DNA from: Bryopsis sp. KO-2023
Taxonomy: Eukaryota; Chlorophyta; Ulvophyceae; Bryopsidales; Bryopsidaceae
NCBI GenBank assembly: GCA_030272585.1
Contig: BSYQ01000008.1
Coordinates: forward strand, 2,046,001 to 2,110,000
Direction of reading: 5' to 3'
DNA: 64,000 nt
The position numbers and the translations under genes are program-made. Shown here piece by piece: positions 19,879 to 52,901 of this stretch (positions are counted from its first letter, which is position 1; each line of letters opens with the position of its first letter). The notes beneath the pieces are model-generated. The model did no database searches, was not told the DNA's origin, and saw only the letters and a program-made list of their open reading frames with translations.

Positions 19879-20266
19879 TGATACAAACGTTGGAACAAAT
19901 AGACTAGTCGAGTGGACTTACGTCTAGAGCACGGAATACACTTCAAACAAGGAACTTTACAATGTGTCCAAGTTACAATGAGGCTGTGGTCCGGGCCGAA
20001 TAAGTATTCGGCCGGGCCGACAGCCTGTCCAACCCTTTCATCCAACTCAGTGTTCTAATGGCCCCTTGGCCGTGTCCTAATGGACCCTAAGCTGAATGTG
20101 AGGCTCCAGGCCGAACTGAGGGTTGCCACCTCAGAGGCGGCCTGGCCCTCTCCCTTATTGTGTGGCTATGATGATGGTGAGCTGGTTCGGTCCGACTACT
20201 GTCAGGCCGAACCACGTGTTGGGTGAGTGGGCCGAACCACGTGTCAAACGACGGACGTTCGTATCA
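19879..20266 (+). repeat. Solo LTR of the E7 family
   Basis: 388 bp from TGATACAAAC to GTTCGTATCA. It matches the two E7 LTRs (52497-52884, 61594-61981) with a dozen or so scattered differences. The flanks AATCC and AGTCC may be a target duplication with one mismatch. No internal region is attached, so it is a solo LTR left by LTR-LTR recombination, older than E7. Confidence 0.85.
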
Positions 20267-20315
20267 AGTCCCCTAGTAACCCTTCTTGTGACGGAGCTAG
20301 AAAGAACATGGCAGA

Positions 20316-20742
20316 TGTTAGTCTTTTAGCGCTATACGAGGTAGTTTGGGATAGAGCCGAGGGTGGCTGACGCATGTGGGTTCGCGAGTAAGACAGATTA
20401 GACCCAGAGTTTGGGGCATGCGTCAGCGTACTACACTTAGGGGTACTTAAGAGGCCCACTCGTTGTTTTGACATTCTTATTCACTTTATTTTGTAAGAAC
20501 TCGGGATTCGTGGGACTGGTGTGTTCCCGCTTGTGTGTGTGTTTGTGTGTGTGTGTGTCTAAGTGTTTGCCTGACGCAATCACTTATCCAACCAAGTGCT
20601 CTAGTAGCGTTCACAACCGCGCTAGCTAGAGAGTTGTCTAAACCAACAAACCCCACAAGTATACTTGCGTTAGCCAGCAAGTTATCACGAATCCAATCAA
20701 CACAGCCGACCACTATTGCGTCACCCACAAGCTTCACTATCA
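20316..20742 (+). repeat. E3 left LTR
   Basis: 427 bp with TG...CA ends and an internal GT microsatellite near 20530-20560. The primer site starts three bases later. Confidence 0.9.
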
Positions 20743-20744
20743 AT

Positions 20745-20756
20745 TGGTTTCGGAGC
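20745..20756 (+). other. E3 primer-binding site
   Basis: TGGTTTCGGAGC. A near-perfect hairpin, CAAGAACTTTAAGTTCTTG, follows at about 20761-20779 in the leader and is shared with E6. Confidence 0.85.
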
Positions 20757-20887
20757 TAGGCAAGAACTTTAAGTTCTTGAGATCGAAACTTGTGAACGTG
20801 GCGCAACAAACGTTTTTGTTTGTTTGTTTGGTAGAGAGAAACTCCAACCGTGGTTGTTGAGTACTCCCAAATAGTGGCTGAGAGATC

Positions 20888-21267
20888 ATGGCTGACCGTG
20901 AACACGCATTGGCAGTGCGCGAGCCTCAAGTTGAAGAGCCAGGGATTGAACCTGAGTTCGATGAGGAATTGCCTGACGCACCCAATGTTGTGTATCAACA
21001 AATAAACGTCCAGAACATCCACAATGTCCAGCAAGCAGCTGTCGACATAGACATGGGAGCTGATGCGGAAGCCTTAAGAGAGGATGTGGATGCGGTCCAT
21101 GACCGTGTGGACGATTTAGCCCACGGGCTAAGGGGTCACCTGCAGCAAGTTGACCAGACACTGGGGCAGAGGCTAGCCCATGCTGAGGCCTCTGTGTCGA
21201 ACCAACTGGCTGGCGCATCAGAGGTGATCGGGCAGGCGCTGGAAACACAGCACCAGCATGCGCAACA
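20888..21267 (+). CDS. E3 gag, 5' portion
   Basis: Starts at ATG (MADREHALAVREPQVEEPG) and codes an acidic, heptad-like N-terminal region. It is interrupted at 21267 by E4. The uninterrupted form is seen in E6 gag (49531-52185). Confidence 0.85.
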
Positions 21268-21637
21268 TGATAGGGGCCCTTCCCCCAGAGGGGGAAGGGT
21301 AGATAGGGGCCCTCCTCCAAGTGGAGGAGGGTAGAACGTGGGAACACAACACAATAGCAAACCCAGCCCCAAAGGTTACACAATGTCAAAAATACAACCC
21401 CTTTTATACCATCCACAACACACTAACCCCTTACTCTACAGTGACACACCCACTCACCGATGGGACATCTAGACACTAACCTCGTCACCTCGTATCAACT
21501 ACATCAACTATGTCAAAAATACAACCCCTTTTATACCATCCACAACACACTAACCCCTTACTCTACAGTGACACACCCACTCACCGATGGGACATCTAGA
21601 CACTAACCTCGTCACCTCGTATCAACTACATCAACTA
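21268..21637 (-). repeat. E4 3' LTR with internal tandem duplication
   Basis: Bases 21268-21506 match the other LTR. A 127-base segment (21384-21510) is then repeated at 21511-21637. In the element's sense this doubles the U3 part, including the TATA box, next to the purine tract. The other LTR has a single copy. Confidence 0.85.
21277..21331. promoter_or_regulatory. Two adjacent perfect hairpins in E4's 3' LTR
   Basis: CCCTTCCCCC-AGA-GGGGGAAGGG (21277-21299) and CCCTCCTCC-AAGT-GGAGGAGGG (21310-21331). The same pair occurs at 30625-30679 in the other LTR. They lie close to the U5 end in the element's sense. Confidence 0.8.
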
Positions 21638-21639
21638 CT

Positions 21640-21654
21640 CCCCCCCCCCCCCCC
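21640..21654 (-). other. E4 polypurine tract
   Basis: Fifteen C on the + strand (15 G in the element's sense) a few bases from the 3' LTR. This is the expected place for the plus-strand primer of reverse transcription. Confidence 0.75.
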
Positions 21655-22145
21655 GAGTGGTGTCCTCAGCACTCAAGAAAGTGAATCGCGAAAGAAAAAC
21701 CCGAAAGAAATAAAGAATAAGTACTTTGATTGGCCGCTAAAAAGAGAAACAGGGCCATCCACTGAACAAAACACGAAGAAAAATAGAAAAATAGAAAACA
21801 AACCTCACAATCATGCAAACAAGATGATTTTCAAACGGCATAACAGATCCCATACTCTGTGAAATCCAAAAACCTTGTGTCTCTTGCTTGGACGGATGCC
21901 CGCTTCTTCGTCTGCTTGCTTCATCAGGGCATTTAGTAATAGCCCGCTCAAGCCTCTCCTAACTCGTGGTTCTATGGTGCGGATGTGGATTCCGCCCACG
22001 AGTACCGCCAAGGAGAAGGTTAAACATGGCATAAGCATTGCTTGCAATGTCTTCTTGCTCGTGATTCAGCACACGAACATGAAGAAATGCCCGCTATGCT
22101 TTATCCGTTCAAGACTCCAAGTCCGCGCAAGCTTAGATTATAACT

Positions 22146-25100
22146 TCCGCTCGCTACCTCGCTTCGCAGTTTCACTTAGTCGGAAACCATAAGCTTCGCT
22201 CTTGTCAGACACTCTCCTGTAGTCCGCTGCTGTTGATATCCGCTGCGGCTTTTCATCCATTGCAGTTTTGGTCAATTCCAATTCCGCTGCAATTCCTTGG
22301 TCAGATTTCCACTTCCGTTTTCTTCATTTACAACTGATATTTTTCCTTCCTTCCATGGTACATCTTCGTTCTTCGCTCGGTAAAACGCTTGGTCGGATAT
22401 CACTTAGGCACAACACTCCATTCGTTACGTTTATCCGCTAGTATATAAGCGGTCATCAGTGTAGAGATTTGTCCGAGGCCAAATCCTATGCGGATACCCC
22501 CAGGATCTCACTAAGCTGGTTGACTGCTAGAGTCCCCACTTAGCAGCGAGAGCCAGTACACCGATGAGAAGTCCGGCTGATCTCTCAGCTTCTTCTCTCT
22601 TCAACGTCCCTACGAATCTCCCATGAGTTTCTCCGCCGCAACACCTCAGAACAATAGCCGCTCGAGCATATCCATAACATGTATGGCCACTGCTATAGAG
22701 ATTTGTCTGAGGCCTACATTTCCCCCAGGATCTCATCGAATCACAATCCGCTGGTTGGCTACTAGAGTCCCTACGTAGCAGCGAGAGCCAGTATATGCAG
22801 CAGAGCGTCCGGCCATTCCCTGACCTCTTCGTCCTTTCTGCTCCAGTGCTATTGTCTTCGATGGTCCGCTCCAATGTTTTTCCGAGTTTGGTCTTCAAAT
22901 AATGTCCGCTCCTTCTTCGGCGGTTTGAATTACTCCGCCCTGATGGTCCATTTTAATCCACCCTGGCGATTCTTTGTTGTCTTCGGCCAATCCTCTGATG
23001 CTTTGGTAAACCCCCATAAGTCTCCATTACATCCTCAGCTTCAGAACATCCATAATCCGCTCATGACTGAGTCAATCGTTGCATAACCACCTTCACGCCT
23101 CCAAGTCGGTTGTCGATCAGAACTTCCGCTCAGTGTTGTCCGCTAGGTCGCTTCAACGTTCGCTTTGACGCCCTTTCATTCGTTCCTAATTGTACTTGCG
23201 ACTATGGTCCTCAAATTCCGTCTTGACTGATATTTTCCGCCTTGGCTCTTTGAGATCATCAATTCCGCCTTCACATTCCGCTCACTGGAATTGTGTCGCT
23301 TCTTCAGGCACAATATCCGCTTCCACAGGCACAATTCCGCTTCTGCAGCACAATTTCCGCTTCTGCAGGCACGATATCCGCTTCCACAGGCACAATTCCG
23401 CTTCTGCAGCACAATTTCCGCTTCTGCAGGCACGATATCCGCCTTAAGTACTGGATTTTGTCCGCCCAAATGCTTCTTGTCTTCGTATTCGCTAGCAATG
23501 TGATTCCGCCAATATTAACTCGCCAGTCATATTCCAACAGGCTTAATCCGCTGGTCACAATCTGCCAGTCGAATACCCTTCAAGTTCTCTTCAGAACTTC
23601 GCTTCTTCCGCCGTAGTCGAAGTTGCTTTCCTCCTGACAAGTGCATTGTCCGCTTCAGTTGCTGTTTCCGCCAACTGATGTACAATTAGTCCGCTCGAAC
23701 GAATTCAGTCACTCAGCTGTATGTGTCTTCCGTCTCCACGGTTCATAGTTCAGAATTTATTTCGGCTTCTTTCTTTGCTCGGCTTCTGTGATAATCCGCC
23801 CTTCGGTCAGTTCCACGTCCGCTCGAGGTTCCTTCGTTGGAGAAGAGTAATTTTTGAATGTCCGCACATTCCTTCTTTTGTTTTCCATTGCATGAGCCGC
23901 CACCTCCGTCGTCTTTGGATCCTTCTCACGGCATCGCTTTGTCAAAGAAACTTCTCAAAGTCTCGCGGTTGCGTCTATAGGTAGTAAATAACCAACTGGG
24001 TATCTCCGCTTACTCCATCCCTATAGAATCGCAATGTGTGCTCATTTTTCGAGCCCGCTATCTCTTCGATACTGTCTAGATCCAAACACGAGTCGATTCT
24101 TTTCACCGCAGATAGTCCGCTCTCATCAATGCTCGGTTAGTCCCCAAGTTCCGCCACTTCAAAACTTGTTGACTTCCACACGAAATATACTCCATATACC
24201 TTCCGCCACAGAGATTACCTTTTAACCCCCGCCTTCCAAAGAACCTTGGAAATAGTCCGCCAGCAACAAGACGATCTTGTCCGCACTATCCATTCAGATA
24301 CCACTAAATAGAAAGTTCCGCAAGAAAGAGTTAAAGGAATGTCAGTCCGTCGACTTCCGCTCCTCAGACAAATAACTCGGGTACCACTTGGCAGTGTTCA
24401 CCTTCCCCGATAGTTTTTGTCTCTCTTTTACCTTGCACGTCCAAAGTTAAATCGCCTTTGGATAATCCCCTTGGTCCTCCTTCTGCGCGCTTGTGGCTTG
24501 GCAAATCCGCTCTTGATCCTATTTTCAGCGAGGTTTAGTTTGCTGGAAGTCAATGCACGCCTTCCCGAGAAGAAAGTATCCAGGTAACCCCCGTTGGGTT
24601 ACCCCTTGTTCGAACAGCAGTTCCGCCTGAGGGGAACTGTGCATCCCTGCTCGCCCCTTGACAAGCGACTTCCCGACGTAACTAATCCGCTTAGCGGGTT
24701 AGCACATCTTGATTTTGGCTCCGGCTTGAGCCTCATCAAGTGTCGGAAGTCCTCCTCCTTTTTCTTCACGCTTGACTTGCCTCTGGAGGAAGACCTTCGT
24801 CTTCTCTTCAGTACCCTGAACGATAATTTCCAGCTCAACCGACTAGCGGGCCAGTGTTCGTACCACGGCTGTCCAGAACACTGGTTGAGGAGCTTGCCCC
24901 CGTTTTCCTGCTGCAAGACATCCCCGTCAGAGTTCCCGCTTTGTCGCCCAAACAGTCCCCTCTCAACTGTTGGTACTTCGCCCGAAGTCTTGAGCTCTTC
25001 ATATCCTCTTCTGTCCGCTGGTTTCTGCACAATATGTGGCACTTCCGCCCTTGGTCTTGTATTGAACGAAAGCCTTGTAATCCGCCCTCCAAATCAGCAT

Positions 25101-28100
25101 AGTCGTCCCTTCTTGTAGTTCCATGCAAGTTCACCTTCAAAATCCGGCTCTAGCGGTCGTATTTAACCCGCTCTGGCTGTCTGATTTCATCCGCCTTTGG
25201 AATTTGTTTTGAAGTCCGCCCTTGAGCCTTTCATAGTCCGCCTGATGAAGCTTTAATCCGCCCGAAGGCTAAACTGTTAGTCCGCCCTCCAGGTGTTTAA
25301 TCCGCCTCAGGGCTTAGTCCTCTTTAGTCCGCCCTCCAGGTCCGCTTCTCAGGTCCGCTTTCCTCAAGGTTGCGGTCTTGGACTTCCTACTTCAAATTAT
25401 CGTGTTCCTCCTCGTCCAAGTTGAACTTTGCTTTGCTGATATAAGGAATCTTTCAGAAGTTTAATGTCGAGTAAAGGCACACACCTTAAGGCGTTCAAAA
25501 CAACCAGGAATAGACCGTTCTCCCTATGGACAAGGGTGCCGACGGATTACCCGGTTCTGCACATTTCACTGAATGGGCTGTCAATGCACAATACTCGAAG
25601 TAAATTCTTCCTCCACACATATTTGCAGTCCGCTGACAGAGCTTGAAGCATCTTCTTTTTGTCGAACTTATTAACATCTTCAACAATCCGCCACACTGAG
25701 TTAACTCTAAGGAGTTCTGGTGTGCGTTCCAACGCTTCGTTCTTAGCTCCAAGGTACTTGGTTTCCCTCTTAGTCCGCCTTTTTAAAAGGTTCACCACTT
25801 CTCTCTCGACTGGTATATTTCTCCACTTCAACAAATCTGCCCGCTCACTTGCCTTTAAGTGTAGCATCCAAGGAAACTCTGTTTTCCGCCCTGACCACCT
25901 GTCAGTGGATACTCCGCGGTCGCTAGTTTGGACCTCTAGCGCGATTTGTTTGTTTGTCAACCTTCAACCAGATTGCTTCGCCTGGTTCAAGCTCTCCTAG
26001 CTTGGGTCTCTCAGTATACACCATAACAGTCTTGCCAGACTGGTTGAAACTACCGCACCTCAATAGTCTCCCAAGCCTTTTTGTCCGAGTGGTGCTCATT
26101 GCTTGGTATGGCGTTTTAGGCCACTCTGGTTGCTCCACAAAGTTAGGCCTCGGCGTGGATTGCGCCATCCCTGGTCTTTGGGATTTGTCCGGCCTTCTGG
26201 CATCCATCCATCGTGCACACCTGGATTTCCGCCTCTTTGTTGATTATGCTCCACGCATAACCGCCGCTTCCACGCTCAATCTTTATTTGCCTCCTCTCCA
26301 GCCAATCCGCGTTCAGCTATGCTTTTCGCCATTCCAGGAAGTCCCCATCCCCTGTTTCCGCTTGACAAGTAGCCAGCCAAATCTCTTTTAAAATATCCGC
26401 TCAGGAAATCCGCCCCAACTCTCTTTGAGGTGGGCGTTATCAGACCCGCTTCCTTGCGATTGTCCGATTGATTCGCTGCTTCCTTTGTCCGCGTTTTGGG
26501 TTTTTCTGGTAATGGTCTCTTATTTCTCAAGCATTTCTTATCTGCCCAGGAAACTATATATCACACAAAGTGTAGTGGCACTTAAATTCCGCCACTTGTC
26601 CTCCATTGATCAAGCAATATCCGCCTGTCTTGTAGTCTAATTCATCCTTTCAGGCTTGTTACCAAGACGTAGTATTTCCGCTCTTGGTGACCACTATTTG
26701 TTGGAATCCGCTCTTGAGCAATGCTCGGTCAATATTTGTCCGCTAAGGCTTCAAATAAGAGCTGTATTCCGCTTCTTTGATCGTGGTTCTTCCATCCTCT
26801 CAATGGTGGACAACTTCTTCAATTTGCGGAATCAAAGCACTCCTTTTTCCGGCCACAAAGCTTCAGAACTCCCATTTCCTCGCGTCTAGGTTTCTGGAAT
26901 AGTTTGGAACCTTATAGTCCGCCTTGGAGTCCGCTTTGGAGTCCATTCTCCCCATCATCATTGCTGGATCCATTCATTCCATGCCTGCTTCAGGATTGTC
27001 CGGTTTAGGTCGAATCCGCTGGCGCCATAGGCTGCTCAAGCTAGTACTCCGCCTATACACTCTAGTGTTCCGCCATCTGAAGCAATATCCGCCCATGTCG
27101 TGGATATCTGTCGTTAGCTTCTTTCCAATTCCAATTCCAGTCAATATTTCGCTTGCTGGTCCTTCAAGCTTTGGATTAAGCTCCTAGAAATCTCTATTTA
27201 GTGGCGCCCTTCTTAGGTCGGCCTACTTGTTCAAAATTTCCGCTTTAATCCCCAACTGACAGTAGTATTCCGCCTCCAGCAACTCTTGAAGTCGTAATGA
27301 TGATGCAATTCCGCTCTTGTGAAGTACTTCATCCAAATGTGTCTTCTGCGGTAGGACTCATCTCCCTGGCACTAAATAATCCGCTTCTTTGACAAGTTTC
27401 CTCCACTCCGACATGCTCTTATGCATCTTTTTCCGCATGCTTTGTCATTTGCAGGACCTTCCATAATTTTAGCCGCTTGTCAACAGTAGAATACATTACT
27501 CAGCGCTCAACTCTCCCAGACACATAACTTTTTCCGCTGATCCTTGAGTTTGCGCTTTTCCTTTATATTATTTTGTCAGTAGCACTCCTTATCCGCTTGG
27601 TAGCTTTTTCCGCTCTTCAGGTTCGGTTAACTCAATGCCTTACACTGGCTAATACGAGTATAATCCGCCCTTACTTCCAATCCACTTGATAATCCGCTTG
27701 TGCTCTTGCTTCTGACAACAATCCGCTGACTCTTTGCTCGCGCTCCATGCTGTTCAAAGCTCGAACTGTTACAAAACACGCTTGTCGGTGATCATATTTG
27801 AATGCTCCATATGATATATCTAATAGCCAATATAGGGAAACTTGGCTTCTACCCGCTCCAGGTTGGGTCTTGTATGGAGGTAGATGACTATAGACAATCC
27901 GCCATTTTATGGCCTTCGCCACTTGACGTTACAGCACCAATTTCCGCTTCTGCGGCCACAGAGTGTGATCAATGTCCGCCACAACAGTAGCTTGGAATCT
28001 TCATCTTTTTCCGCTTCAGCTCATGGCATTTACTCTCCGTGAGCAGTTGAACTTTCCGCTCAAGCAATCACACATAGTTCTCAGTAGCAGCGTCACTATC

Positions 28101-30070
28101 CGCTCTGGCTTTGTTGATTTCCGCTTGGCAGTTCTACTGTCTCCATATGAACACATTTACTCCGCTCTTTGGATGCCTGTATTGTCTGTCACTTATTCCG
28201 CTTGCACCTTTGCTGCATTGGAATTTCCGCTCAAGACACACACCCTCATCGCCTCCGCATTCTGCCTCAGCAGTCCGCTCTGACAGTCCGCCTTTGCCTT
28301 AGCTTTTAGTCCGCTTAGTGCAATAGTCTGACGGTTGTAATTTGGTCGATGAATACTCCTTAAACTTTTGGGTGTTGTTCTTGGCGCTAGACTTCCATTT
28401 ATGGCTAGTATTGTGAGCCATATCCGCTCAATGGTTTGTGGTAATGTCCGCCCTGACCAGACGTATGATTCCGCTTAGTCCTTCAGCCAATAGTCCTTGG
28501 ACCTGATCATCCAGGTTGGCTCTTTTATTTCCGCTCTGGCTCAGGTTCTTGACGGTCTAATTTAATCCGCCTGACGGTATAATTTAGTCCGCCTTGACGA
28601 CCTCATTTAGTCCGCCTCTGCTATTCCGCTGGTGAAAAGAGAATGAATTTTTCCGCTCGTGATCCTCGGTTGGTTCCATGGAAACTCGGTTAGTTCCAAA
28701 GAATACCACCATACACTTCCACGGCAATAACCTCTAATTCTTCTTCTTCACTCAGCCCGGAATATCACAGTCCACTACCACATCCATTAGACCTCAAAGT
28801 TTACCCACAAGATATCCGCTCAGAGCTTCAACAATGCTTCACTTGCCCGTTCATAACATTAAGTCACAAACATCCAATGTGGCACTGCTATTGCGTGCTC
28901 CTTAATCAGATTCAAACTCTCGAGAATGCTCGATAGCTCGCGGCAAGCTACATTATATCCGCTCGTCTTATATCCGCTTGTGTGAGGTCTTGGCTTATTG
29001 AAAGTCCATTCCAAACGAACTATACTCTCCACCAGCTCCTTCTGCAACAAATCATTCTGCATACTTAATAGCTTAGCAGATGATTCCTTCTCTTCCGCCC
29101 TGCGTACTTAGCAGCTTTGCAGGCGGTTTAATCCCCCACTTGGGTGCGTTGAACTCCACTATCGCTTGAACTCGGTTTGTAGGTAACTGGCAGGCCGCTC
29201 TTCCGCTCTCTATTAGCCTGGCGACTTCTTTTCTCTCTTTGTCTTCTTGTCGCTAGTTGTGTTTACATTCTTCCGCTATGGTCCAACTCTTGGCAGTATA
29301 AAGTCTTTGTCTTGTTATCTTCGCACTGAAAATCCGCTCTTTTGCGGTTGCTAGTCCGCTGGGTGATCAGCCCAGGCGGTTTGTGCGTTGATACAGACTC
29401 GTTTCTGCTCCTGCCATGTAACACAACCTCCAGCTCCTGTTTCATGACCGCCTCCAACTCTTGATGTATCAAAATCCGCCTCCAACGCGATCGTGAAACT
29501 ACCGTAGTTCTAGCCTCGATACTTCGCCGATATTCCGTGTTGTGTGTCCGCTGGTGCTCCTCCAAGCTCAACCGCTTTAGCTCACAACAACACCGCCTAT
29601 TCTTCCTCCGCGTTGGAATATCATAGTCCGCCCAGCAGAGTGTAAGGGCAGCAGTTCGCTGGGCCACTTTGCCCGCCTTCTACCTCTGTCCGCCCTCACT
29701 CTCCGCCGTTTCCGTTTAACCGCTTTGGCGGACTTCGTTTTTCCGGCTCTGGCGAACTACCTCGGAGTTCTGTCCGCTCCCTTTTTCCGCCACCTATTTT
29801 GTCCGCTGCGCCATTTTGTCCGCTGTCAGACTTTGGCCTTTTCCATTCGCTGTCTGACTTTGGCTCGTCCGCTGCACTTCCGGCTCGCCATTTCCGCTCT
29901 GCGGATTCCGATGTAACACTTCCGCTCCGCGGATTCCGCTGTGATACTTCCGCTCTGCCACATTCCGCTGTAACACAGTATGACATGACTGTATGTCCGA
30001 CAACGGAATTTCTGGCAGCTGTCACAGGCGCAGTCGTCGACTTCTTGCGCAGCAACTATCCGCCACCACG
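22146..30070 (-). repeat. E4 dispersed TCCGC/GCGGA motif array
   Basis: By hand count TCCGC occurs about 138 times on the + strand here, about one per 57 bases, against about 8 expected for a random pentamer. The reverse complement GCGGA occurs only about six times. Flanks are biased: most are (A/T/G)TCCGC(C/T), such as ATATCCGCTT, AGTCCGCC and TTTCCGCT. Spacing is irregular (13 to over 100 bases) and not a multiple of three, so it is not a tandem repeat, CRISPR or coding repeat. The + strand is also pyrimidine-rich, so the element's RNA would be purine-rich. The density falls near 24721-24960 and 25921-26220. The rest of the window shows no such enrichment. Confidence 0.9.
23313..23441. repeat. 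61-bp tandem repeat within the E4 array
   Basis: A 61-bp unit starting ATATCCGCTT at 23313 repeats at 23374 and begins a third time at 23435. Each unit holds three TCCGC motifs about 20 bases apart. This suggests local amplification as one way the motif spread. Confidence 0.85.
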
Positions 30071-30600
30071 CGTTCGCCGTCCGTGTGTCGAACTTCCCTC
30101 ACGAACGTTGCCTCGAACTTGGTTCGTCCATAGGTGGTTCGTTTGTAGGAGATCTTTGCAGATCTGCTGTAGATCTTCTTCCAGAAATTTACAGGTTCTG
30201 TCGAAACTTTGTCTTAGGGAAACTTAAGCTCTCAGCTTTTCTTTCCACTGCTTTTCGAGCTCTTTCGACCTGTTTCGAACTCTTTTCGACCACTGTGCTG
30301 TCCTTTAGGTTAACAGTCACAAGGTCACCTGCAGATTTCTGTAGATCTGACCCTTAGATCTCTTCCTGCGACGGGTTCCTTTTCGTTTCCTTCTCCTCGC
30401 CTCTACCCCGACCTTTCCAGTGCTTACGAACTCGTCGCTCGCACTCGCGCTCCTTCGATCCCACCTAGCACCACCCCCTTTGGTGCCATCACTCCTTGCC
30501 CATCCCCTCTTGATAGGCACTTAACCTAGCCACTGACTTTTTCGTCGTCAGGTGGCTCCTCCTACAGGGTCGTCCGTCCTCGTCGTTTAAGGACGCCCAA
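30071..30600 (-). other. E4 leader between primer site and motif array
   Basis: The 5' part of E4 in its own sense. It lacks the dense TCCGC motif and shows no convincing ORF. AGATCT-type words recur near 30150-30360. It may hold packaging signals, by position only. Confidence 0.4.
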
Positions 30601-30612
30601 GCTCCGAAACCA
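30601..30612 (-). other. E4 primer-binding site
   Basis: GCTCCGAAACCA on the + strand, three bases inside the 5' LTR, identical to the primer sites of the autonomous elements. Confidence 0.85.
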
Positions 30613-30615
30613 AAA

Positions 30616-30854
30616 TGATAGGGGCCCTTCCCCCAGAGGGGGAAGGGTAGATAGGGGCCCTCCTCCAAGTGGAGGAGGGTAGAACGTGGGAACACAACAC
30701 AATAGCAAACCCAGCCCCAAAGGTTACACAATGTCAAAAATACAACCCCTTTTATACCATCCACAACACACTAACCCCTTACTCTACAGTGACACACCCA
30801 CTCACCGATGGGACATCTAGACACTAACCTCGTCACCTCGTATCAACTACATCA
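30616..30854 (-). repeat. E4 5' LTR (right end)
   Basis: 239 bp. In the element's sense it starts TGATGTAGTTG and ends CCCCTATCA. It contains the hairpin pair at 30625-30679 and a TATA box. Confidence 0.92.
30750..30757 (-). promoter_or_regulatory. TATA box of E4 5' LTR
   Basis: CTTTTATA on the + strand reads TATAAAAG in the element's sense, about 100 bases into the LTR. This is the expected place for a U3 promoter. It is a good RNA polymerase II TATA match. Confidence 0.65.
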
Positions 30855-30859
30855 CAACA

Positions 30860-33131
30860 GGTTGAGGCCACACAGCATGCGGTGGTGTCGCAACAGCAGA
30901 AGCTGGATTCAGTAGCGGCTCAACATAGTCGATACGAGCAGAGGCTATTACGCCAAGATATCGACCATAGGAAAGAAAGAGCCGAGATCAAAGCTTCTGT
31001 GGACGCAATAACGAGGAGGATGGATGCCGCAGACATCCTAGCGGACTCTCGTTTTGCTGACCTAAAAGAAGCAACTGAAGCATCAGCACTTCAGTTAAAA
31101 CAACTCTCCGAGTTATCCCTTGTTCAAGGGCGGAGAATTGAAGGCTTATTAGGAACTGTTGCGGATTCCAACGAAAAAGTCGAACGGACTCTAGAATTGT
31201 TTCGGGAGTCCTTGCACAAACAAGGTGCTGAGGTGAAGCGTTTGCAGAGCTCAAGAGTAGCAATTCAAAAAGATTTGATTGCCTTGGAGAAAAAGGCATC
31301 CAAGACCTGGGATCAGCAGCAAGATGCAGCTGATGTGGTTGCCTTAAGATTATCTGGCCTGGAACGAAGCATGGAGGATGTGAGTGGCGGAAGTCAGAGT
31401 GCCCAAAGTGGAAGTGATGCTCGTGCAGTATCACCAGAGCGAGAAGAATCAACTTCTCCTGAGCCTGAGGACTCAGCCTTTGGGATGCCGCTGCCGAAGA
31501 AATCAGTAAAGCAGTTGGCTGCATCATGGCCGCCACTAGACCAGAGCTTCGCGGTAGGAATGGTTGGGGCAGGAACCTCAACAATACCGGCTCCTCCAGC
31601 AGTACAGGTCGAGGAGGGTGAAATTGTTGCTGCAGAAGCACCACCATGCACTGCAGTGGATAGCGCACCAGACGCTGATTTCACATTCCCTCAGTTGATA
31701 CCTCCAAGTACAAGAGCTCAGCCTGGAGTACGCATCTCAGAACCCGACTCTGCCGATGGATCACGTAGACCCACACGAACTAACCCAAGAGTTCTCTCCT
31801 CAGCAGAAGTGTTATATCAAATTGACCTTGAGCGTGCTAAGGCACAGGTCAGAGAAGAGAAAGGAAAAGAACCCATGCAGATCCCCACACGTATTGGAAG
31901 ATTGGGACTTGGGTTAAGTGCTTTAGGAGCAAGGGTAGAAAATAATCCCTTTGCTGCACTTGGTTCATATGAGTCTACTGGTGGACCCAGTCGAGTTCCT
32001 CGCATGCGAGGTAACTTTGGAGACCCTGGTGATGACGACTCAGATGATGATGGCGGTGATGATTACCGCGACAGACGAAACCGCCCACCTTCCCGCATTC
32101 CAGGTGCGCCTGATGGCGGAGGAGGTGGTGGCGGCGGTGGAGATGGTGGAGGCGGTGGACCTCCCGGTGGACCTCCTGATGGAGGTGGAGGTGGAGGTGG
32201 CGCTGGACCAGCAGGCCCAGGACCTCCTAGGCAAGGACAGTGGTTGCCTAGCACCGTCAAGTTGCAAATGCCTCGCGCATTTAACGGAAGTGGAGAACCA
32301 AAAGCCCGTAAATGGCAAGTGCTCATGACGCGGTACTTGAGAACCTGCGGAGTGCATGAAGCACAGTGGCAATCGATTATGGCCACTAACCTTTATGGGG
32401 CTGCCTCGGATTGGTTAACGATGCAAGAGTTGAAAATTCACCGAGGTGAAAGACCACCCTTCCGTGACTGGATGGACTTCATGGATGGCTTAGCTACAGC
32501 TTTCGAATTCTCTAGTGATCGAGATGAAGCGTGGCGTGACCTCCATAAACTCAAGCAGACTGGAACCGTGAAACAGTTCGTTAAAGAGTTTCAGCGGTTA
32601 GTTTTGAGGATTCCAGACCTCGAAGAGGATCACCAGTATTTGCTCTTCGTGGATGGACTTAAAAGTGAAGTTCAGAAGTTAGTCGCAGCAACGGTACCTC
32701 GAGATGTCGAGGCCGCCATCATATCCGCCGAACGATTGGAAGCCCTTGGAGTTGGAACACAAGGCCAAGGAGGGCAAACCAATCAGAAAAAGAAAGGAGT
32801 CTGGCGTGGTGGAAGAAAGAAGAAAGGCCAGAATCAGGGTCAGCAGCAGCAGAACCCTACACCACCAGCCCAAGCACCACCACAAGCTGCCGCAGGAGTG
32901 CAACAGCAGCAGCAACAGCAACAAGGACGAGGAGGAGGACGTGGTGGTGGTGGACGTGGACGCGGTGGTGGTAACCGTGGAAGAGGACAAGCCAATCAGG
33001 GAAGACAGAACCCCCAGGGGGGAGGGGGATATCATTGTTATCTTTGTGGAAAGAAGGGTCATCCTGTGAGGCAATGTCCTAGATTGGAGGAGGTGAAAAA
33101 CCTCCCCGATGTAAAAAAAATGTTAAACTGA
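30860..33131 (+). CDS. E3 gag, 3' portion with CCHC knuckle
   Basis: Continues after the CAACA duplication. It begins with long coiled-coil text, then an acidic Ser/Pro region. A Gly/Pro-rich stretch (DGGGGGGGGGDGGGGGPPGG-like) follows, then a capsid-like domain (MPRAFNGSGEPKARKW ... YGAASDWLTMQEL ... QFVKEFQRLVLRI). Q-rich and RGG-rich text precedes a zinc knuckle (CYLCGKKGHPVRQC). The stop at 33129-33131 lies beside a frameshift-like signal. Confidence 0.85.
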
Positions 33132-33166
33132 CCGCCAGGCAGGAAACTGCTTCGTCTGAGCCTGGC
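33122..33166 (+). promoter_or_regulatory. Candidate -1 ribosomal frameshift signal between gag and pol
   Basis: GTTAAAC (33122-33128) fits the X-XXY-YYZ slippery layout in the gag frame, right before the gag stop; a run of A lies just upstream. After a 5-base spacer, GCCAGGC (33134-33140) can pair with GCCTGGC (33160-33166). The pol frame is open through the site in the -1 frame. Gag-pol frameshifting is common in Ty3/gypsy elements. The same signal occurs in E6 at the matching place. Confidence 0.6.
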
Positions 33167-33388
33167 CGACGCAAACGTCGTAAGCGAAACAGAGTTCGTA
33201 GGCGGCGTAGGAAGCATAGATCAAAAGTAGGTGCCTCGAAAAAGGTTAAAAGTACTCACAGCGGAAAACCTGAGGAGCGGACTAGTACACCGCGTGAAGA
33301 GAGAACAGAGACACTCTCCACATCTACCCAATCGGCACATGACAACTGCGATTGGAAAAATGAACAGAAGGAAAGCACACCGGATGAG

Positions 33389-36300
33389 ATGGACGCGCCT
33401 CATGCGTCATCTGCATCTCTTCCCTCTGTTAGTGAATCTGTGGGCTCATTGGAGTCGCAGAGTAGTCTACAGGAGTCCCTGCCTGCAGACGTAGACGATA
33501 GTGGGTCAGAAACAACCCAGCGGTCTACCACAGAGCGAGTTAATGTGTCAGAAGTTCGATCAACTTCATCAACCAAGGGTGACACATGCCCTCTGTTAAA
33601 AATTCAAGAAGTGCCTGTGAGAGGGTACGAAGTAAAAGCACGGATCAAGACCACGGACCTTTATGCATTCATTGATTGTGGAAGTACCGCAAACTATATC
33701 AATGATAAGGTAGCGCGTGATCTCGGGTTGTCGATTACACCAAGCTCAAAGAGAGCAATGTTGGCAAACGGAGATATTAAAGAATTGGCTGGCAGCTGTA
33801 ACAACCTCCGAGTAAAGATAGGAGGGCTGAAGTGCAAAATGAAAGCGGATCTGTTCCCAGACCTTGGTTATGACCTAATATTGGGCATGCCTTGGTTGCA
33901 GAAAGAAAACCCCCGCATAGACTTTCAGCAGAATGAGATTTCAGTTTGCAAAAACAGCCAAGTGTTTCATCTTCCGTTGCGTCATCCAACCCAAGAGAGT
34001 ATTGAACCTGAACGAAAAGTACAGTCGATACTGCAAGAAGTGCCAGTGACTGAGTGTTCAGCTAAGAGAATGATGCGTCATCTCAAAACAGAGACAGCAT
34101 TCATGGTTGTAGTGCAAGAGTCTGAAGAGAAAGCTTTAGGCCAACATGAATTGCCTGACGCAATAGAGCGAACACAGCCATTCAACACTGAGGATGAGAT
34201 TGGCAAACTTATTCGTTCAGACACCCCTGCCGAAATTAAAAAGGTGGTAGAAACACACCGTGGTGTGTTCCCTCGTGATTTACCCCCAGGGATCCCTCCG
34301 AAAAGAAAAGGTCATGAGTTTAAGATAGACCTGGAGGATCCAACACCTATCCATCGTCCAATATACAAGCTTTCACCAGCAGAGCTGGATGAAGTGAAAG
34401 CACAAGTGGACTACCTTCTGGAACAGAAGAAAATCAAACCATCCGAGTCCCCTTGGGGCGCGCCAATCCTATTTGTACCGAAAAAGGATGGAGGCTTAAG
34501 GATGTGTGTGGATTACAGGTGGATCAATAAGGTGACGGTGAAAAACCGGTATCCTTTACCCCTGCCAGAAGAATTGATGGATAGAGTGTTCAAAGCCAAA
34601 GTGTTCTCGAAGTTAGATCTGCGATCAGGCTATTGGCAATTTCCAGTAAGGCCATCTGATACAGATAAAACAGCGTTCCGCACGAGATACGGTCACTTTG
34701 AGTTTTTGGTAGCGCCTTTTGGGCTAACCAATTGCCCAGCGCAATTCCAAACTCTAGTGCAAGACCTACTCGCAGAGTTTTTAGATGATTTTGTTGTTGT
34801 CTTTATCGATGACATACTCATCTTCTCTGAAAACATGGAACAGCATGCCGAACACTTAGAGAAAGTCCTGTCGCGACTAGCAGAATATCAGCTTTTTGCT
34901 AAGGCAAGTAAAAGTGAGCTGGCTGTCGCAACAGTAGACTATCTTGGCTACCGCATTAGCGGAAGTGGGTTAAAACCACAGGAACAAAAAGTGAAGGCAG
35001 TGAAGGAGTGGAAGGAACTACAGAGTGTTAGTGAGGTACGTAGTTTCCTTGGAATGGTTTCATACTACAGGAAATTCATTCCCCAGTTTGCACATGTTGC
35101 TGGACCACTCCATGACTTAGTGAAAAAAGACCATCCCTGGAGATGGGGACAGGTTGAGCGTGGCGCATTCAATGAACTGAAAAAGCGTTTAAGTCAAGCT
35201 CCCGTCCTTATTTTTCCAGATGCGTCACTGCCTTACACTGTGATCACTGATGCGTCGAATGAGGCCATCGGTGCCGTGTTAACACAGGATCACGGAGAGG
35301 GGCTACAGCCAATAGCTTACCTCTCACGTAGATTCAAGCCTGCCGAGCTTAACTATGCACCATACGACAAAGAGTTGTGTGCAATATGTTATGCGATGGT
35401 GCAGTGGAGACATTATCTAGAAGGTTGTGCGGGTGGAGTAACAGTGTTCACTGACCACCAACCTCTGACGCATATTCTGTCGCAGAGGAACCTTTCTAGA
35501 ACCCAAGCAAGATGGCTTGAGGCGGGGTACCTGACTTCGATCAACCCCAAGATCTCCTATATCAAAGGCAAGGCTAATGTGTTAGCAGATGCTCTCTCCC
35601 GCAGTGTTCCTAAGCCCGTGGAAACTGCGATGAACATTTCCACTTGGCAAGTGCATCAAGCAAGCCAAGACGAGTGGAAACAAGCCCTCCAAGCTGATAA
35701 CTCCTTGGTGAAGATATTGCGGAAGCTTGAGAGTGGCGAGGAAGTTGAGGGATATTTCCTCAGAGAGGGAATACTCTGGACGGTCCCAAAAAGAGGGTTA
35801 GTCGAGAAAGTGGTGGTTCCGAAAGGCCAGCGCAATAAGATCATGAAGGAGTGCCATGAGACACCTTCAGCAGGCCATACAGGACCAGCGCGAACAGGAG
35901 AAATCCTAGCGCGGCGATATTGGTGGAAGGGGTGGATGAATGAGTTGAAGGCATTTGTGCGCGAATGCCCTGTGTGCCAACAAATAAAGGCTGACACACA
36001 GAAGCCTATGGGCTTACTTCAACCCCTGCCAATACCTGAGCGGAAGTGGGAGCAGATTACCACTGACTTGGTGACAGATCTACCAGCATCCAATGGGTTT
36101 AGTGCTGTAGCTGTCTTTGTCGATAGACTTACCAAGTTTGTGCATTTCGCCCCATGTACTAAAGAGATTACCGCTGCAGGATACGCCCAACTTTTTATCG
36201 AACATGTTTACCGCAACCATGGCCTACCTAAAGTGATTGTGTCTGATAGAGACCCTCGCTTTACCAGCAAGTTCTGGCAGACGCTTTTTAAAGCTCTGGG

Positions 36301-37129
36301 TACAGAGATTCGTATGAGTACAGCTTACCACCCTCAGACGGATGGGCAGAGTGAGGTTACCATACGTACTCTGGAAAATTTTCTAAGGCCATATGCTGAG
36401 AGGTATCCCCATAAGTGGGTTGAGTATTTACCTACAGCAGAGTTTGCAGCAAACAATGCAGTGAATGCGAGTACAGGGTTCGCACCTGCATACTTGATGT
36501 ATGGGTACCATCCAGAAACACCAAACATTGGTGGGACGGCAACGCAATTTCAAGTGGAAGCAGTTAAGACTATGGTAGCACGGATGGCACAGGACCTAGA
36601 TACCGCAAAAGCATATTACTCTAGAGCACAACACAGAATGTGTGTGAGTGCAAACAAGAAGAGGAAAGATATTGCTTTTGAGAAAGGGGATAAAGTCCTG
36701 ATAAAAAGCCGTTTTATTCCGTTGGCTGCTTTGAACAAAGTGAGTCCCAAACTGCGCCGTCGATTTGTGGGTCCCTTTGAAATTGTGGAGAAAATATCAA
36801 AGGTGGCTTACAGAGTTCAACTTCCGGAAACATGGCTCATTCACCCAGTGTTTCATGTTTCTAAGTTCAAGCGTTATCACGCCTCGAGTGATAACAGCAG
36901 GCAGATACAACCTCCAGAAGGAGAGTTGATTGGTAGCGAAGTAGAGTATGAGGTCGAAAATATCCTAAGGGCTAGAGGTAAACGCAATCGCGAATACCTA
37001 GTGCTGTGGAAAGGATACGATCTACTTGACGCTACTTGGGAACCTGAAGCTAATCTGGTTAACGCACCAGATATACTTCGCGCATTTAAAGAGAAAGAAA
37101 GAAAAGAGTTGCAGAAAGGAAGAGAATAG
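33389..37129 (+). CDS. E3 pol: protease, RT, RNase H, integrase, chromodomain
   Basis: The first Met is at 33389 and gives 1246 residues. The frame is open upstream to the gag end through an Arg-rich stretch (GRRKRRKRNRVRRRRKHR). Protease: YAFIDCGSTANYI. RT: LDLRSGYWQF near residue 408 and VFIDDILIF near 470. RNase H: VITDASNEAIGAVL near 619. Integrase HHCC finger near 820-867 (HETPSAGH ... CPVCQQ). DDE core near 891 (TTDLVTDLP), 951 (VSDRDPRF) and 987 (TDGQSEV). Chromodomain near 1185-1240 (YEVENILRARG ... YLVLWKGYDLLDATWEPEAN). It looks whole. Confidence 0.92.
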   Translation: MDAPHASSASLPSVSESVGSLESQSSLQESLPADVDDSGSETTQRSTTERVNVSEVRSTSSTKGDTCPLLKIQEVPVRGYEVKARIKTTDLYAFIDCGSTANYINDKVARDLGLSITPSSKRAMLANGDIKELAGSCNNLRVKIGGLKCKMKADLFPDLGYDLILGMPWLQKENPRIDFQQNEISVCKNSQVFHLPLRHPTQESIEPERKVQSILQEVPVTECSAKRMMRHLKTETAFMVVVQESEEKALGQHELPDAIERTQPFNTEDEIGKLIRSDTPAEIKKVVETHRGVFPRDLPPGIPPKRKGHEFKIDLEDPTPIHRPIYKLSPAELDEVKAQVDYLLEQKKIKPSESPWGAPILFVPKKDGGLRMCVDYRWINKVTVKNRYPLPLPEELMDRVFKAKVFSKLDLRSGYWQFPVRPSDTDKTAFRTRYGHFEFLVAPFGLTNCPAQFQTLVQDLLAEFLDDFVVVFIDDILIFSENMEQHAEHLEKVLSRLAEYQLFAKASKSELAVATVDYLGYRISGSGLKPQEQKVKAVKEWKELQSVSEVRSFLGMVSYYRKFIPQFAHVAGPLHDLVKKDHPWRWGQVERGAFNELKKRLSQAPVLIFPDASLPYTVITDASNEAIGAVLTQDHGEGLQPIAYLSRRFKPAELNYAPYDKELCAICYAMVQWRHYLEGCAGGVTVFTDHQPLTHILSQRNLSRTQARWLEAGYLTSINPKISYIKGKANVLADALSRSVPKPVETAMNISTWQVHQASQDEWKQALQADNSLVKILRKLESGEEVEGYFLREGILWTVPKRGLVEKVVVPKGQRNKIMKECHETPSAGHTGPARTGEILARRYWWKGWMNELKAFVRECPVCQQIKADTQKPMGLLQPLPIPERKWEQITTDLVTDLPASNGFSAVAVFVDRLTKFVHFAPCTKEITAAGYAQLFIEHVYRNHGLPKVIVSDRDPRFTSKFWQTLFKALGTEIRMSTAYHPQTDGQSEVTIRTLENFLRPYAERYPHKWVEYLPTAEFAANNAVNASTGFAPAYLMYGYHPETPNIGGTATQFQVEAVKTMVARMAQDLDTAKAYYSRAQHRMCVSANKKRKDIAFEKGDKVLIKSRFIPLAALNKVSPKLRRRFVGPFEIVEKISKVAYRVQLPETWLIHPVFHVSKFKRYHASSDNSRQIQPPEGELIGSEVEYEVENILRARGKRNREYLVLWKGYDLLDATWEPEANLVNAPDILRAFKEKERKELQKGRE

Positions 37130-37457
37130 GGAAACAGAGTGTTTGATGGCTAAGGTGGAACTCCTTATAGCAAGGGGGCGCGAAAAAGGATACCTTAGAA
37201 AAACTCTGTCGACTTCCAAACCAACTCTTTAACTTTAATGCGTTAGGTGCCTAAGTTATTTGGCTGGCGCAGTAAGTGTAGCTTCAGTAGTACTTTAGAA
37301 ACCGGGCAAACGATGTCACATTCGAGATAGTGTGGTTGTTCCGAGAAAACCCCTATCAAGTGACGTGTTGAGGTGGTCTTGACGAGACTCCAACCGAGCG
37401 AAACGTTGGTGTCTCACCCCAATAACTCAACGAGGAAAGTGTACGAGTCACCCAGCC

Positions 37458-37464
37458 TTATAAG
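37458..37464 (+). promoter_or_regulatory. Possible internal promoter TATA box for ORF3
   Basis: TTATAAG about 120 bases upstream of the ORF3 ATG, within the 450-base gap between pol and ORF3. It is kept in all three copies (about 40341 in E5 and 45200 in E6, reversed). An internal promoter would explain ORF3 expression; splicing is the alternative. Confidence 0.4.
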
Positions 37465-37579
37465 CGCAGCCCTCGAACCATTTTGCCCTAGTGTTTGTGT
37501 AAACGGAGCGAGCTCCTGAGTGAAAAAGAGTCTAAAGACGCACAAACCGTTGTTTATTTCTTTCTTTCCGACGAACATA

Positions 37580-39394
37580 ATGGCTGCTGATACCCCCGCC
37601 GCAATTATTGCGAGGTTGGAAGCGGAGGTAGCTCAAAAAGAAGAAGAGCTGCAGCACTTTACGTCGACCGCAGAGGAAGTGCTGCAGAACAATGAGGCCT
37701 TAACCCGGCAGCTCTCAGAGTTGAGTGACCGGACGAAAGCAGCTGAGGCTGCGAAGGAGGCAGCGGAGAAAGCCAAGGATAAGGCGGAGGCGGAAAAGAA
37801 AGAAGCGGAGGACAAGACCAAGGTCTTGGAAGAAAAATTGGAAGCCATGAAGCTGAAAAAGCAAAGGTTCCAATCTCACATGATGGCTAACCATCGTGAG
37901 AATGACCTCCGTAAACAAGCTCTCGGGGGAATGGTGGATCGATTTACCGCGGTAGAGGAAACGCTGCAGCGAGCTGTAGCAACCGCGTGGAGTGCAGCAG
38001 CCAACAACCTTAAGAAGGAATTGGCAGAACAAGAGCTGCAGATCGATTTGCTGGGAGAGTCCCTCAGAGACGGCTCTGAAAAACTTCAAGTGCAGAGCGA
38101 AACAACGGACAAGATGCTGCGTTTGAACCCGGCGGTACCAGCACCACGGGTACGCGAAGAACTGGATCGCCAAGTCCAAGTTCTGTTGTCAAACGCAACA
38201 CTTGATCTGGAACCGTCCGAGGACGATGATGCGGGAGGCTCAAGCAAGGGCAAGGGGAAAGGGAAAAACAAACGCCCAAGCTCGCCGTGTAGGGATGAAG
38301 ATCCACACGGAAAGAGAAGGCGAGAGGACGGTGACGATGAAGGTGGTGAGCCACCGAGGGATCGTATGCCTGGAGATGCAGCAAGAGCCAACTTGTTACT
38401 CAAGTTAAAGGCTGCCGCATTAAAGACTCCAGCACCCTCACAACCAGCGCCAACAGTTCAGACTCCCGGAGATGAGGCTACCGCAATAGCACCGGGGGAG
38501 GACTTATTCGACATGAGAGAGGAGGAGCTTTTGGACTTGGATTTTAACGAAGAAATTGACTTCGGCAGTCCAGCTCCTAGGCTCGAAGGTCCTAGTTCTG
38601 AACTGGAGGACGGGGAAATCAGGAATGATGAAGGGCCAAGCCAGGTGACAGAGGTTCAGCGTGCGATCCATCCACCGTTGGAGTTAGCTCCAACAGAAGC
38701 AGCACTTCGGGCTTTCCGAGAAAAGGTTAAGCTCAGAAGACTAAGGGCGGCTGCTCAGGACAAAGTGGATGCTGCACCCAGCGAAGTGAACCTGTCACGG
38801 GAGGATATCGAGGAGGCTTGCAACCCCATCACTGCGTCAGAGAAATGGCCGAAGGTCCAATATACCAACCCCAGGGACCGAGCCTTGCAAAATTACCGCG
38901 GCAACCGGCACTTTCACGAGTTGCCCATGTGCATTTGGTGCGGGAGAAGCCCAATGCAAGCAAGTGCTCAGCGGCTGACGCAGAAGAAGTATTCCGTCCT
39001 TCCTTGTGGGTATCACCTCGTGTGTGATGCTCATTGGTTGGCATACTCGATGCTGGGGCGCATCGTCACGGCGGTCCAAAAAGTCGCGGAAGTGGACAAC
39101 AAGTCCATCGCCACCGTCTCCCCATTCTCTCTACCTGCCCATATGTTGAAGCTGACACGCTCGACGTTCGAAGAAATCCCTCCGTTCCCGGCTGAGCACG
39201 AGAAGTTGCCACACTGCAACATGTGTGTGAAGCGGCAGCTCAAGGTGTCCGGCATCACAAGGGATCTGCCATTCCTTAAGTCCAAGAGGGTGGCTGCCGC
39301 ATTTGATCCCTGTGTCCGGTATCGTGCAGTGCAGCAAGCGCATGCGCAGGAGCAGCGTGCTATTCAGCCAGCGCAAGCGCCGGAACAGCGTTAA
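37580..39394 (+). CDS. E3 ORF3: coiled-coil protein with RING-like zinc site
   Basis: 604 residues from MAADTPAAII. Residues about 5-110 and 130-190 are heptad-rich coiled coil (AEAAKEAAEKAKDKAEAEKK). An acidic and basic linker with nuclear-signal-like text (KGKGKGKNKRPSS, GKRRRED) follows. Next comes an acidic stretch with an ELEDGEI motif, then a Cys/His site: C451, C454, C476, H479, C482, H485, C546, C549. This eight-ligand order matches a RING-like cross-brace. There is no signal peptide or membrane segment, so it is not an envelope protein despite its position between pol and the 3' LTR. Three near-identical copies in the window and an analog in E7 argue for function. Role unknown; ubiquitin ligase, nuclear import or silencing suppression are guesses. 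Confidence 0.8.
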   Translation: MAADTPAAIIARLEAEVAQKEEELQHFTSTAEEVLQNNEALTRQLSELSDRTKAAEAAKEAAEKAKDKAEAEKKEAEDKTKVLEEKLEAMKLKKQRFQSHMMANHRENDLRKQALGGMVDRFTAVEETLQRAVATAWSAAANNLKKELAEQELQIDLLGESLRDGSEKLQVQSETTDKMLRLNPAVPAPRVREELDRQVQVLLSNATLDLEPSEDDDAGGSSKGKGKGKNKRPSSPCRDEDPHGKRRREDGDDEGGEPPRDRMPGDAARANLLLKLKAAALKTPAPSQPAPTVQTPGDEATAIAPGEDLFDMREEELLDLDFNEEIDFGSPAPRLEGPSSELEDGEIRNDEGPSQVTEVQRAIHPPLELAPTEAALRAFREKVKLRRLRAAAQDKVDAAPSEVNLSREDIEEACNPITASEKWPKVQYTNPRDRALQNYRGNRHFHELPMCIWCGRSPMQASAQRLTQKKYSVLPCGYHLVCDAHWLAYSMLGRIVTAVQKVAEVDNKSIATVSPFSLPAHMLKLTRSTFEEIPPFPAEHEKLPHCNMCVKRQLKVSGITRDLPFLKSKRVAAAFDPCVRYRAVQQAHAQEQRAIQPAQAPEQR

Positions 39395-39589
39395 GGAGGA
39401 GGGAAAAGGAGTTATCGTCGACCAAGTGTGTGCGTGCAGCAGCTGTCAGAGACGTCAGAGCAAGAGACAGGTCCAAGACAGTTGGGTGTGGGTATGGGAG
39501 TGGGTGAGTTTTGTGTTTGTGTTTTTGTGTTTTTGTTTTTCTTTGTGTTTTGGTGTGCGTGGGCGCCCACTTTTTCCGGGGGGGGCGTA

Positions 39590-43073: not shown

Positions 43074-43268
43074 TACGCCCCCCCCGCAAAAAGTGGGCGC
43101 CCACGCACACCAAAACACAAAGAAAAACAAAAACACAAAAACACAAACACAAAACTCACCCACTCCCATACCCACACCCAACTGTCTTGGACCTGTCTCT
43201 TGCTCGGACGTCTCTGACAGCTGCTGCACGCACATACTTGGTCGACGATAACTCCTTTTCCCTCCTCC

Positions 43269-52328: not shown

Positions 52329-52330
52329 AT

Positions 52331-52884: not shown

Positions 52885-52901
52885 ACCACTCCCCCCCCAC
52901 G

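Follow-up and report, generated by a model that had tools for sequence, protein, structure and literature searches.

A one-strand array of 141 GCGGA sites in the interior of a LARD-like LTR retrotransposon of Bryopsis sp. KO-2023

Structure of the element

The DNA analysed here is a stretch of 64,000 nucleotides from the siphonous green alga Bryopsis sp. KO-2023 (contig BSYQ01000008.1, positions 2,046,001 to 2,110,000; the window hereafter). Sequence analysis located in it a 9,587-bp long terminal repeat (LTR) retrotransposon at 21268-30854, with its sense on the minus strand, whose interior carries 141 copies of the pentamer GCGGA in the sense orientation. This array occupies 21991..30063 of the minus strand, appears as TCCGC on the plus strand, follows the consensus RGCGGAHWW and shows no coding signal.

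The element starts with TG and ends with CA, and its ends were set by an uninterrupted relative in the same window, which is inverted and related to the host element that the insertion interrupts. The segment 20577-21267 corresponds to 52496-51806 and 30855-40014 corresponds to 51810-42654; the 5-bp overlap is the target duplication, TGTTG on the minus strand, found at 30855..30859 (upstream in the element's sense) and at 21263..21267 (downstream). The LTRs have the termini TGATG...CTATCA, and the 5' LTR (30616..30854, minus strand) and the 3' LTR proper (21268..21506, minus strand) are 100% identical over 239 bp, in agreement with the identical LTRs claimed by a first-pass annotation made from the sequence alone. 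That annotation did not include an additional 127-bp stretch (21507..21633, minus strand), attached to the 3' LTR only, in which the first part of the LTR is repeated in tandem; this could stem from a template switch in reverse transcription or from a later event. The 5' LTR contains TATAAAA and, at LTR offset 126, one TGTAA, which is the green-algal poly(A) signal.

Adjoining the 5' LTR internally is a candidate primer-binding site, TGGTTTCGGAGC... (30595..30615, minus strand), proposed from its sequence, the window holding no tRNA for comparison. A poly(G) polypurine tract of 15 bases lies ahead of the 3' LTR (21640..21654, minus strand). This type of tract is common to other LTR families, and poly(G) followed by AGTAGTTGAT with at most one mismatch has 221 genome matches, as against 3 for the reversed control. 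According to the site list, sense GCGGA is absent from the 5' leader (30064..30615, minus strand) and from a 3' segment (21655..21990, minus strand), and the array thus starts about 550 nt past the 5' LTR and ends about 335 nt ahead of the poly(G) tract. The same leader holds short TTCGAA-type word repeats at 30240-30291, a candidate leader signal.

Paired LTRs with TG...CA ends, the 5-bp target duplication and the polypurine tract identify the element as an LTR retrotransposon, and its multi-copy interior of more than 4 kb, with no gag or pol detected (6 open reading frames (ORFs) tested, no period-3 signal), makes it LARD-like. LARDs, the large retrotransposon derivatives, are non-autonomous plant LTR elements whose interior exceeds 4 kb and lacks gag and pol. 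The element resembles them in its LTRs, target duplication, polypurine tract and long interior without coding capacity. However, no motif array was found for LARDs in the literature, among the matches listed.

The GCGGA array

The first-pass annotation had counted about 138 TCCGC and about 6 reverse complements, and 22146-30070 indeed contains 139 TCCGC and 5 GCGGA on the plus strand; two more sites, at 21991 and 22122, bring the interior to 141. In 1000 dinucleotide-preserving shuffles, a check set beforehand, the count was 14.7 +/- 3.6 with a maximum of 29, nowhere similar to the observed one (z = 35). This z-score is the highest of all pentamers, and the next seven all overlap the same motif, whereas the complement on the sense strand is found 6 times against 3.7 +/- 1.9 in the same shuffles. 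The sites have a density of 1 per 64 interior bases and a mean spacing of 57.6; in 46.9 kb of sequence flanking other copies, outside both GCGGA families described here, each strand has 1 site per 1031 bases. An enrichment of roughly 17 times chance had been proposed; the value is 16- to 18-fold with respect to the surroundings and 9.6-fold over the shuffles.

The bias in the bases next to the pentamer is stronger than first claimed, since RGCGGAHWW occurs 79 times against 1.6 +/- 1.3 in shuffles. Among the 141 sites, 130 have a purine at -1, 131 a base other than G at +5, 117 an A or T at +6 and 111 an A or T at +7. Further out than -1 and +8 the base composition is near background, apart from slight excesses, for instance of C at -5 and -7. 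Of the 15 variants that differ from GCGGA by one mismatch, none clearly exceeds the shuffles (largest z 2.1). Between the motifs in 21991-30063, the words ATGGA (29 vs 12.7), TGGAG (30 vs 14.5) and TGGAA (31 vs 15.8) are also in excess, and these are perhaps a weaker second form of the site.

The spacing is irregular, as had been noted, but it is not random. In simulations that preserved the density landscape in 400-bp bins, start-to-start gaps shorter than 12 nt were expected 17.9 +/- 3.5 times, and only 2 of the 140 gaps are so short (0 of 2000 simulations were as low), whereas gaps of 12-30 nt number 60 of 140 against 37.6 +/- 4.6. When four local tandem arrays were removed, leaving 119 of the 141 sites, the corresponding values were 0 against 12.0 +/- 3.1 and 40 against 26.8 +/- 4.1. 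Gaps shorter than 9 nt are missing because the extended motif itself spans 9 bases, and the near absence of gaps of 9-11 nt (1 against an expected 7 or so) suggests that a site has a footprint of some 12 nt.

The sites could in principle act at the DNA level, for a host factor involved in transcription, chromatin or integration, and a motif that includes CpG and has a tight consensus of transcription-factor size would suit such a role. However, the asymmetry of 141 to 6 between strands is maintained over 8 kb, and double-stranded DNA sites rarely need one orientation; nor are the copies, judged by eye among the matches listed, gathered into a single cluster on each contig, a pattern that a centromere element might show. 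We consider a DNA-level function very unlikely.

As the first-pass annotation had stated, the sites do not keep codon phase (51/50/40), and the interior as a whole does not look like coding sequence. Its period-3 power is 1.16 times the mean, compared with 20.5 for a gag ORF of the window, and each sense frame contains 111-138 stops. With the standard code the longest open stretch has 164 codons; in mononucleotide shuffles (150 frames) it averaged 95 codons and was at most 216. It reaches 253-369 codons, depending on the frame, when TAA/TAG are read as Gln. None of the 6 interior ORFs tested on the sense strand has a Pfam match above cut-off, and Rfam returned 0 matches at gathering score in 20000-32000. 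A coding origin of the interior was set aside, being unsupported by ORFs, Pfam, stops, period-3 signal or the alternative code. In the sense strand of 21655-30615, ATG is depleted (135 vs 164.3 +/- 9.2, with 0 of 300 shuffles giving so low a count), as though the RNA shunned start codons.

Copies across the genome and conservation of the sites

The genome searched for copies comprises 91 Mb. The 2.5-kb middle piece has at least 43 matches at 92-100% (best 40 of 45 candidates scored), at least 33 of which, the window included, span the entire piece at 93-100% identity; the 5' piece has at least 40 at 93-100% (best 40 of 45 candidates scored), and the LTR at least 43 (best 40 of 95 candidates scored). 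All 30 middle-part loci, including the window copy L009, carry 61-90 sites on one strand and 0-2 on the other over about 5.5 kb, and the lowest counts (61-68, in L012, L023, L030 and L034) belong to loci that align only partly to the family. Two LTR pairs are just 4.4-4.5 kb apart (C10:839622-844011 and C15:1304591-1309094), and these look like separate deletions because they retain the 5' piece to different lengths. Among the matches listed there is no amplified short derivative.

We compared motif columns with other columns within base and CpG class, after projecting 57 of 60 loci onto the window copy (three window-copy loci were left out), dropping matches below 85% or 100 nt and columns with fewer than 9 rows, and classing sites by the window copy. 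Middle and LTR loci overlap in a zone of about 600 bp, so that some copies enter the count twice there, and three loci (L015, L016 and L019) hardly differ from one another. In the 619 motif columns, singleton changes were as frequent as expected (34 vs 29.3) and changes of any kind slightly fewer (61 vs 73.7, P 0.07), whereas shared changes were clearly rarer: 27 vs 44.5 in two or more rows (P 0.003), 18 vs 40.0 at a frequency of at least 0.1 (P 8e-5) and 9 vs 25.7 at a frequency of at least 0.2 (P 1.4e-4). The ratio of singleton to shared changes (at least 0.1) was 34/18 in the motif and 282/417 elsewhere (Fisher p = 0.0007).

An earlier version of this test, in which sites were classed by column majority, agrees with the result, and in that version equally low values came from 4 of 500 circular shifts of the site mask at the cut-off of 0.1 and from 1 of 500 at 0.2. 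GCGGA has the lowest P of 65 pentamers, the best of the 64 controls, which have fewer columns, reaching 0.008 at the cut-off of 0.1. In a tree built from 24 middle copies out of 30 (L012, L016, L019, L023, L030 and L034 were dropped), terminal changes per site were 0.158 in the motif and 0.167 elsewhere, and internal changes per site were 0.059 in the motif and 0.108 elsewhere (Fisher p = 0.03). The expectation that motif sites would be better conserved than the bases between them is thus borne out for shared changes and not for singletons. It would seem from these alignments that changes arising after insertion ignore the motif, and that changes passed on by transposition avoid it. These tests share data and use several cut-offs, so we take them together as a single finding of moderate strength. 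At -1 and +5, on either side of the pentamer, the variability among copies is roughly double that of an average interior base.

Short identical sites packed densely into an RNA that is apparently non-coding also bring to mind a sponge, which would protect the element or its helper by titrating either a silencing protein of the host or a UCCGC-seeded small RNA. Decoys of the CsrB and NORAD types follow the same logic. However, a few expressed copies would suffice for titration, and retention of sites in each transmitted copy is not obviously expected from it; in addition, the flank preference RGCGGAHWW suits a protein better than a seed. In our judgement a sponge is improbable.

A second GCGGA-rich family and the autonomous Gypsy elements

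A second LTR family of the same genome is also rich in GCGGA. It is found in four places (L001-L008, e.g. G000:C1:1622490-1625515) and has an Ala-Glu-rich, coiled-coil-like ORF of 583-658 codons; its LTR is 82% identical over 83 bp to that of an autonomous Gypsy family (L074) and has only the first 11 bases in common with the LTR of the array element. The ORF contains 32-34 GCGGA, nearly all as GCG-GAN (mainly Ala-Glu/Asp codons), compared with means of 20.6-21.9 (standard deviation 2.4-2.6) after synonymous codon shuffling. In each of the four copies no pentamer is more over-represented than GCGGA, and its density in the L001 ORF, 19 per kb, is close to the 16 per kb of the non-coding array. 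Ahead of the tandem-repeat part of L001 the excess is smaller (13 vs 8.6 +/- 1.9), but in this same part GCG encodes 14 of the 16 Ala that precede GA, as against 15 of the 39 found elsewhere in L001 (p 0.001). The other three copies gave p 0.0002-0.0004 for GCG before GA, although they belong to the same family and are not independent, and other fourfold codons before GA showed no such effect in this family. The result is suggestive only, because the family was found through its GCGGA richness.

Among control ORFs of the window with at least 250 codons, GCG before GA showed a mild bias (44/173 vs 160/949, p 0.01), which became 24/114 vs 94/605 (p 0.17) when duplicates and a 624-aa family were excluded, and two host HSP70 exons showed no bias (2/13 vs 7/54). 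In four autonomous Gypsy ORFs of the window, GCGGA counts observed and expected from synonymous shuffling were 6/4.3, 6/4.8, 7/5.3 and 10/9.0. Pieces of an autonomous Gypsy family that has the poly(G) tract (L069-L073 and L075, the last with RNase H and integrase domains) carry no arrays, with 4, 4, 6, 4 and 4 sites in five 1.2-kb pieces from a single family and 7 in 3.0 kb.

The coding repeat of the second family raises the question of whether the array is a functionless relic, either a decayed GCGGA minisatellite or a former Ala-Glu coding repeat of this kind. Short tandem arrays are present in the interior, such as one of period about 20/61 at 23297..23442 (minus strand), which includes some sites, and the GCGGA of the second family lies mainly in Ala-Glu/Asp codons. 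However, beyond the LTRs and these short local arrays, self-comparison gave one 107-bp pair at 74%, and with irregular spacing and so little self-similarity the interior is not a satellite or minisatellite. The sites also have flanks near background and no clear excess of one-mismatch variants, and shared changes avoid the motif. Finally, G at +5 occurs in just 10 of 141 sites, yet the coding family often has CGGAG (17 in L001, 13 in L004). A relic is, on this evidence, unlikely.

Possible function of the array

The restriction to one strand over 8 kb, the 9-base consensus, the minimum spacing and a conservation that appears mainly in transmitted changes together point to one protein that reads RNA or single-stranded cDNA. 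With moderate confidence, we favour the reading that this is a non-autonomous, non-coding LTR element in which the genomic RNA serves as a scaffold, offering about 140 sites to a single RNA-binding protein that is sequence-specific. The GCGGA sites would act in RNA, where one protein would bind many of them and coat the RNA with many molecules each. Such coating may be required in each cycle, either so that the 9-kb intronless RNA stays unspliced, stable and exported or so that it enters the particles of an autonomous Gypsy-type helper. Since no protein of the element's own was found, the binding protein would be the host's or the helper's.

The second possibility, included in the probability that we give to the scaffold reading, is that the sites are dispersed packaging signals that bind the Gag or nucleocapsid of a Gypsy helper and outcompete the helper's own RNA. 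An element without detected gag or pol should need helper particles, the poly(G) tract followed by the AGTAGTTGAT start is also found in an autonomous Gypsy family that has RNase H and integrase domains, and the array covers the RNA except for its leader and 3' end. However, the LTR of the element matches that of this poly(G)-sharing family over the first 13 bases only, and the autonomous ORFs of the window are only slightly above the GCGGA expectation from synonymous shuffling. Taken by itself, this variant seems rather unlikely. We lean slightly towards a host RNA-handling protein over a helper Gag, since no comparable array is present in the helper-type elements examined and since GCGGA is also preferred by the second family, whose LTRs are unrelated and which seems to be tied to a different helper.

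A more tentative idea, possible although we would not count on it, is that Bryopsis LTR families with unrelated LTRs converged on a sense-strand GCGGA code, written in non-coding sequence in one and in synonymous codons in the other, for one trans-acting RNA-binding protein that is required for retrotransposition. If this were true, a distributed RNA recognition code would take the place of a compact signal for packaging or export. A motif that is dense, short and apparently under selection makes it directly testable how non-autonomous LTR elements have their RNA exported and packaged by others.

The first-pass annotation had already suggested an array of RNA-protein sites, and the single strand, the consensus RGCGGAHWW and the minimum spacing fit this suggestion, but exposed single-stranded sites are unsupported by predicted folding. 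Several results weigh against the scaffold reading, the first of which come from this folding. The mean probability that all five bases are unpaired is 0.073, compared with 0.093 +/- 0.009 when the sequence between motifs was shuffled (60 of 60 shuffles were higher), and no hairpin or stem is common to the sites. Only 3 of 141 sites are predicted in a hairpin-loop context, against 11.8 in shuffles, and a weak excess of 4-nt arms was seen for two arm positions (18 vs 9.8 and 15 vs 7.4). Presentation of the motif in a hairpin was tested in three ways and rejected, since its pairing is slightly higher than in shuffles and the sites share no stem. Nor does the predicted folding favour a site that is simply exposed as a single strand, though proteins can open weak pairing.

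The RNA-processing words are also mixed. The 5' splice-site-like word GTRAGT is absent (0 vs 4.0 +/- 2.1; 8 of 300 shuffles as low), and GTAAG (4 vs 9.3) and GTGAG (8 vs 14.2) are below expectation. On the adverse side, pyrimidine-tract-AG words are in excess (6 vs 1.6 +/- 1.9) and the poly(A) word TGTAA is at expectation (7 vs 7.0). That the RNA is obliged to stay unspliced is weakly supported.

The remaining adverse points concern selection and the second family. The selection signal rests on 18 vs 40 events; it is weaker at the two-row cut-off, where 29 of 500 circular shifts were as low; and a few control pentamers have a lower ratio of observed to expected changes on small numbers (CAAGC 0 vs 4.8, TGGAG 3 vs 8.8). 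The signal is also weaker on the tree (p = 0.03 for internal changes), and -1 and +5, the bases next to the pentamer, are more variable than average (15/122 and 13/123 at a frequency of at least 0.1). The second family was itself detected by a clustered-TCCGC pattern.

Comparison with known systems

The first-pass annotation knew of no described LTR element with such an array, and likewise none with a comparable array was found in the literature, judged by title and abstract opening among the matches listed, which were mainly open-access. The closest systems differ in one respect or another. In single-stranded RNA viruses, dispersed packaging signals are sequence-structure motifs bound by the coat protein (PMC6281560, as far as the available text goes), and the array resembles them in having many copies of one short recognition motif along a genome RNA. 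It differs from the signals described there in that it has no common hairpin and no detected coat gene and is known here from sequence alone; a recurring stem-loop was not seen in the predicted folding.

The GGA core and the purine-rich sense RNA recall the exonic enhancers of SR proteins. Human SRSF1 recognises GGA and selects C at -4 and +6 from GGA, according to the accessible part of PMC7813835. In the array, C at these positions is found in 23 and 26 of 141 sites against about 27 expected, and a fixed GC stands ahead of GGA, so that it does not have the SRSF1-type pattern given in that part of the source.

The export elements of intronless RNAs include CAR elements, the IAP RTE and the MusD MTE, and the sections available of a 2025 review (PMC12786077) describe CARs of 160-285 nt with one or more 10-nt motifs and call the presence of CAR-like motifs in plant LTR elements unclear. 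The likeness to the function proposed here would lie in a cis-acting RNA that lets intronless retroelement RNA leave the nucleus; the difference is that CAR, RTE and MTE, as presented in those sections, are larger single elements, whereas the array consists of many short sites.

Four other known signals were set aside. The Bacillus subtilis Chi sequence, AGCGG, differs from the true core of the array, GCGGA, and the host here is a eukaryote. To mimic the 3' end of 18S rRNA, the sites would need U at -1, which was found in 5 of 141. E2F sites need AA after the core and work in either orientation, and the m6A motif GGACU covers only the subset of sites followed by C.

Other features of the window and its surroundings

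Around the array element lie nested and inverted Gypsy copies (20315-21267, 30855-40014 and 42654-62468) with protease, reverse transcriptase, integrase and chromodomain, one of them interrupted by the array element and one not. Three copies of an ORF of 624-633 codons are found at 37520-39391, 40376-42274 and 43272-45170; the first has no Pfam match, and GCGGA is mildly frequent in the ORF, at 2.6-3.2 per kb as counted in two of the copies. Elsewhere in the genome, many HSP70 gene pieces, several of them with stops, are spread across 3 Mb of one contig (G000:C2:5619047-8619376).

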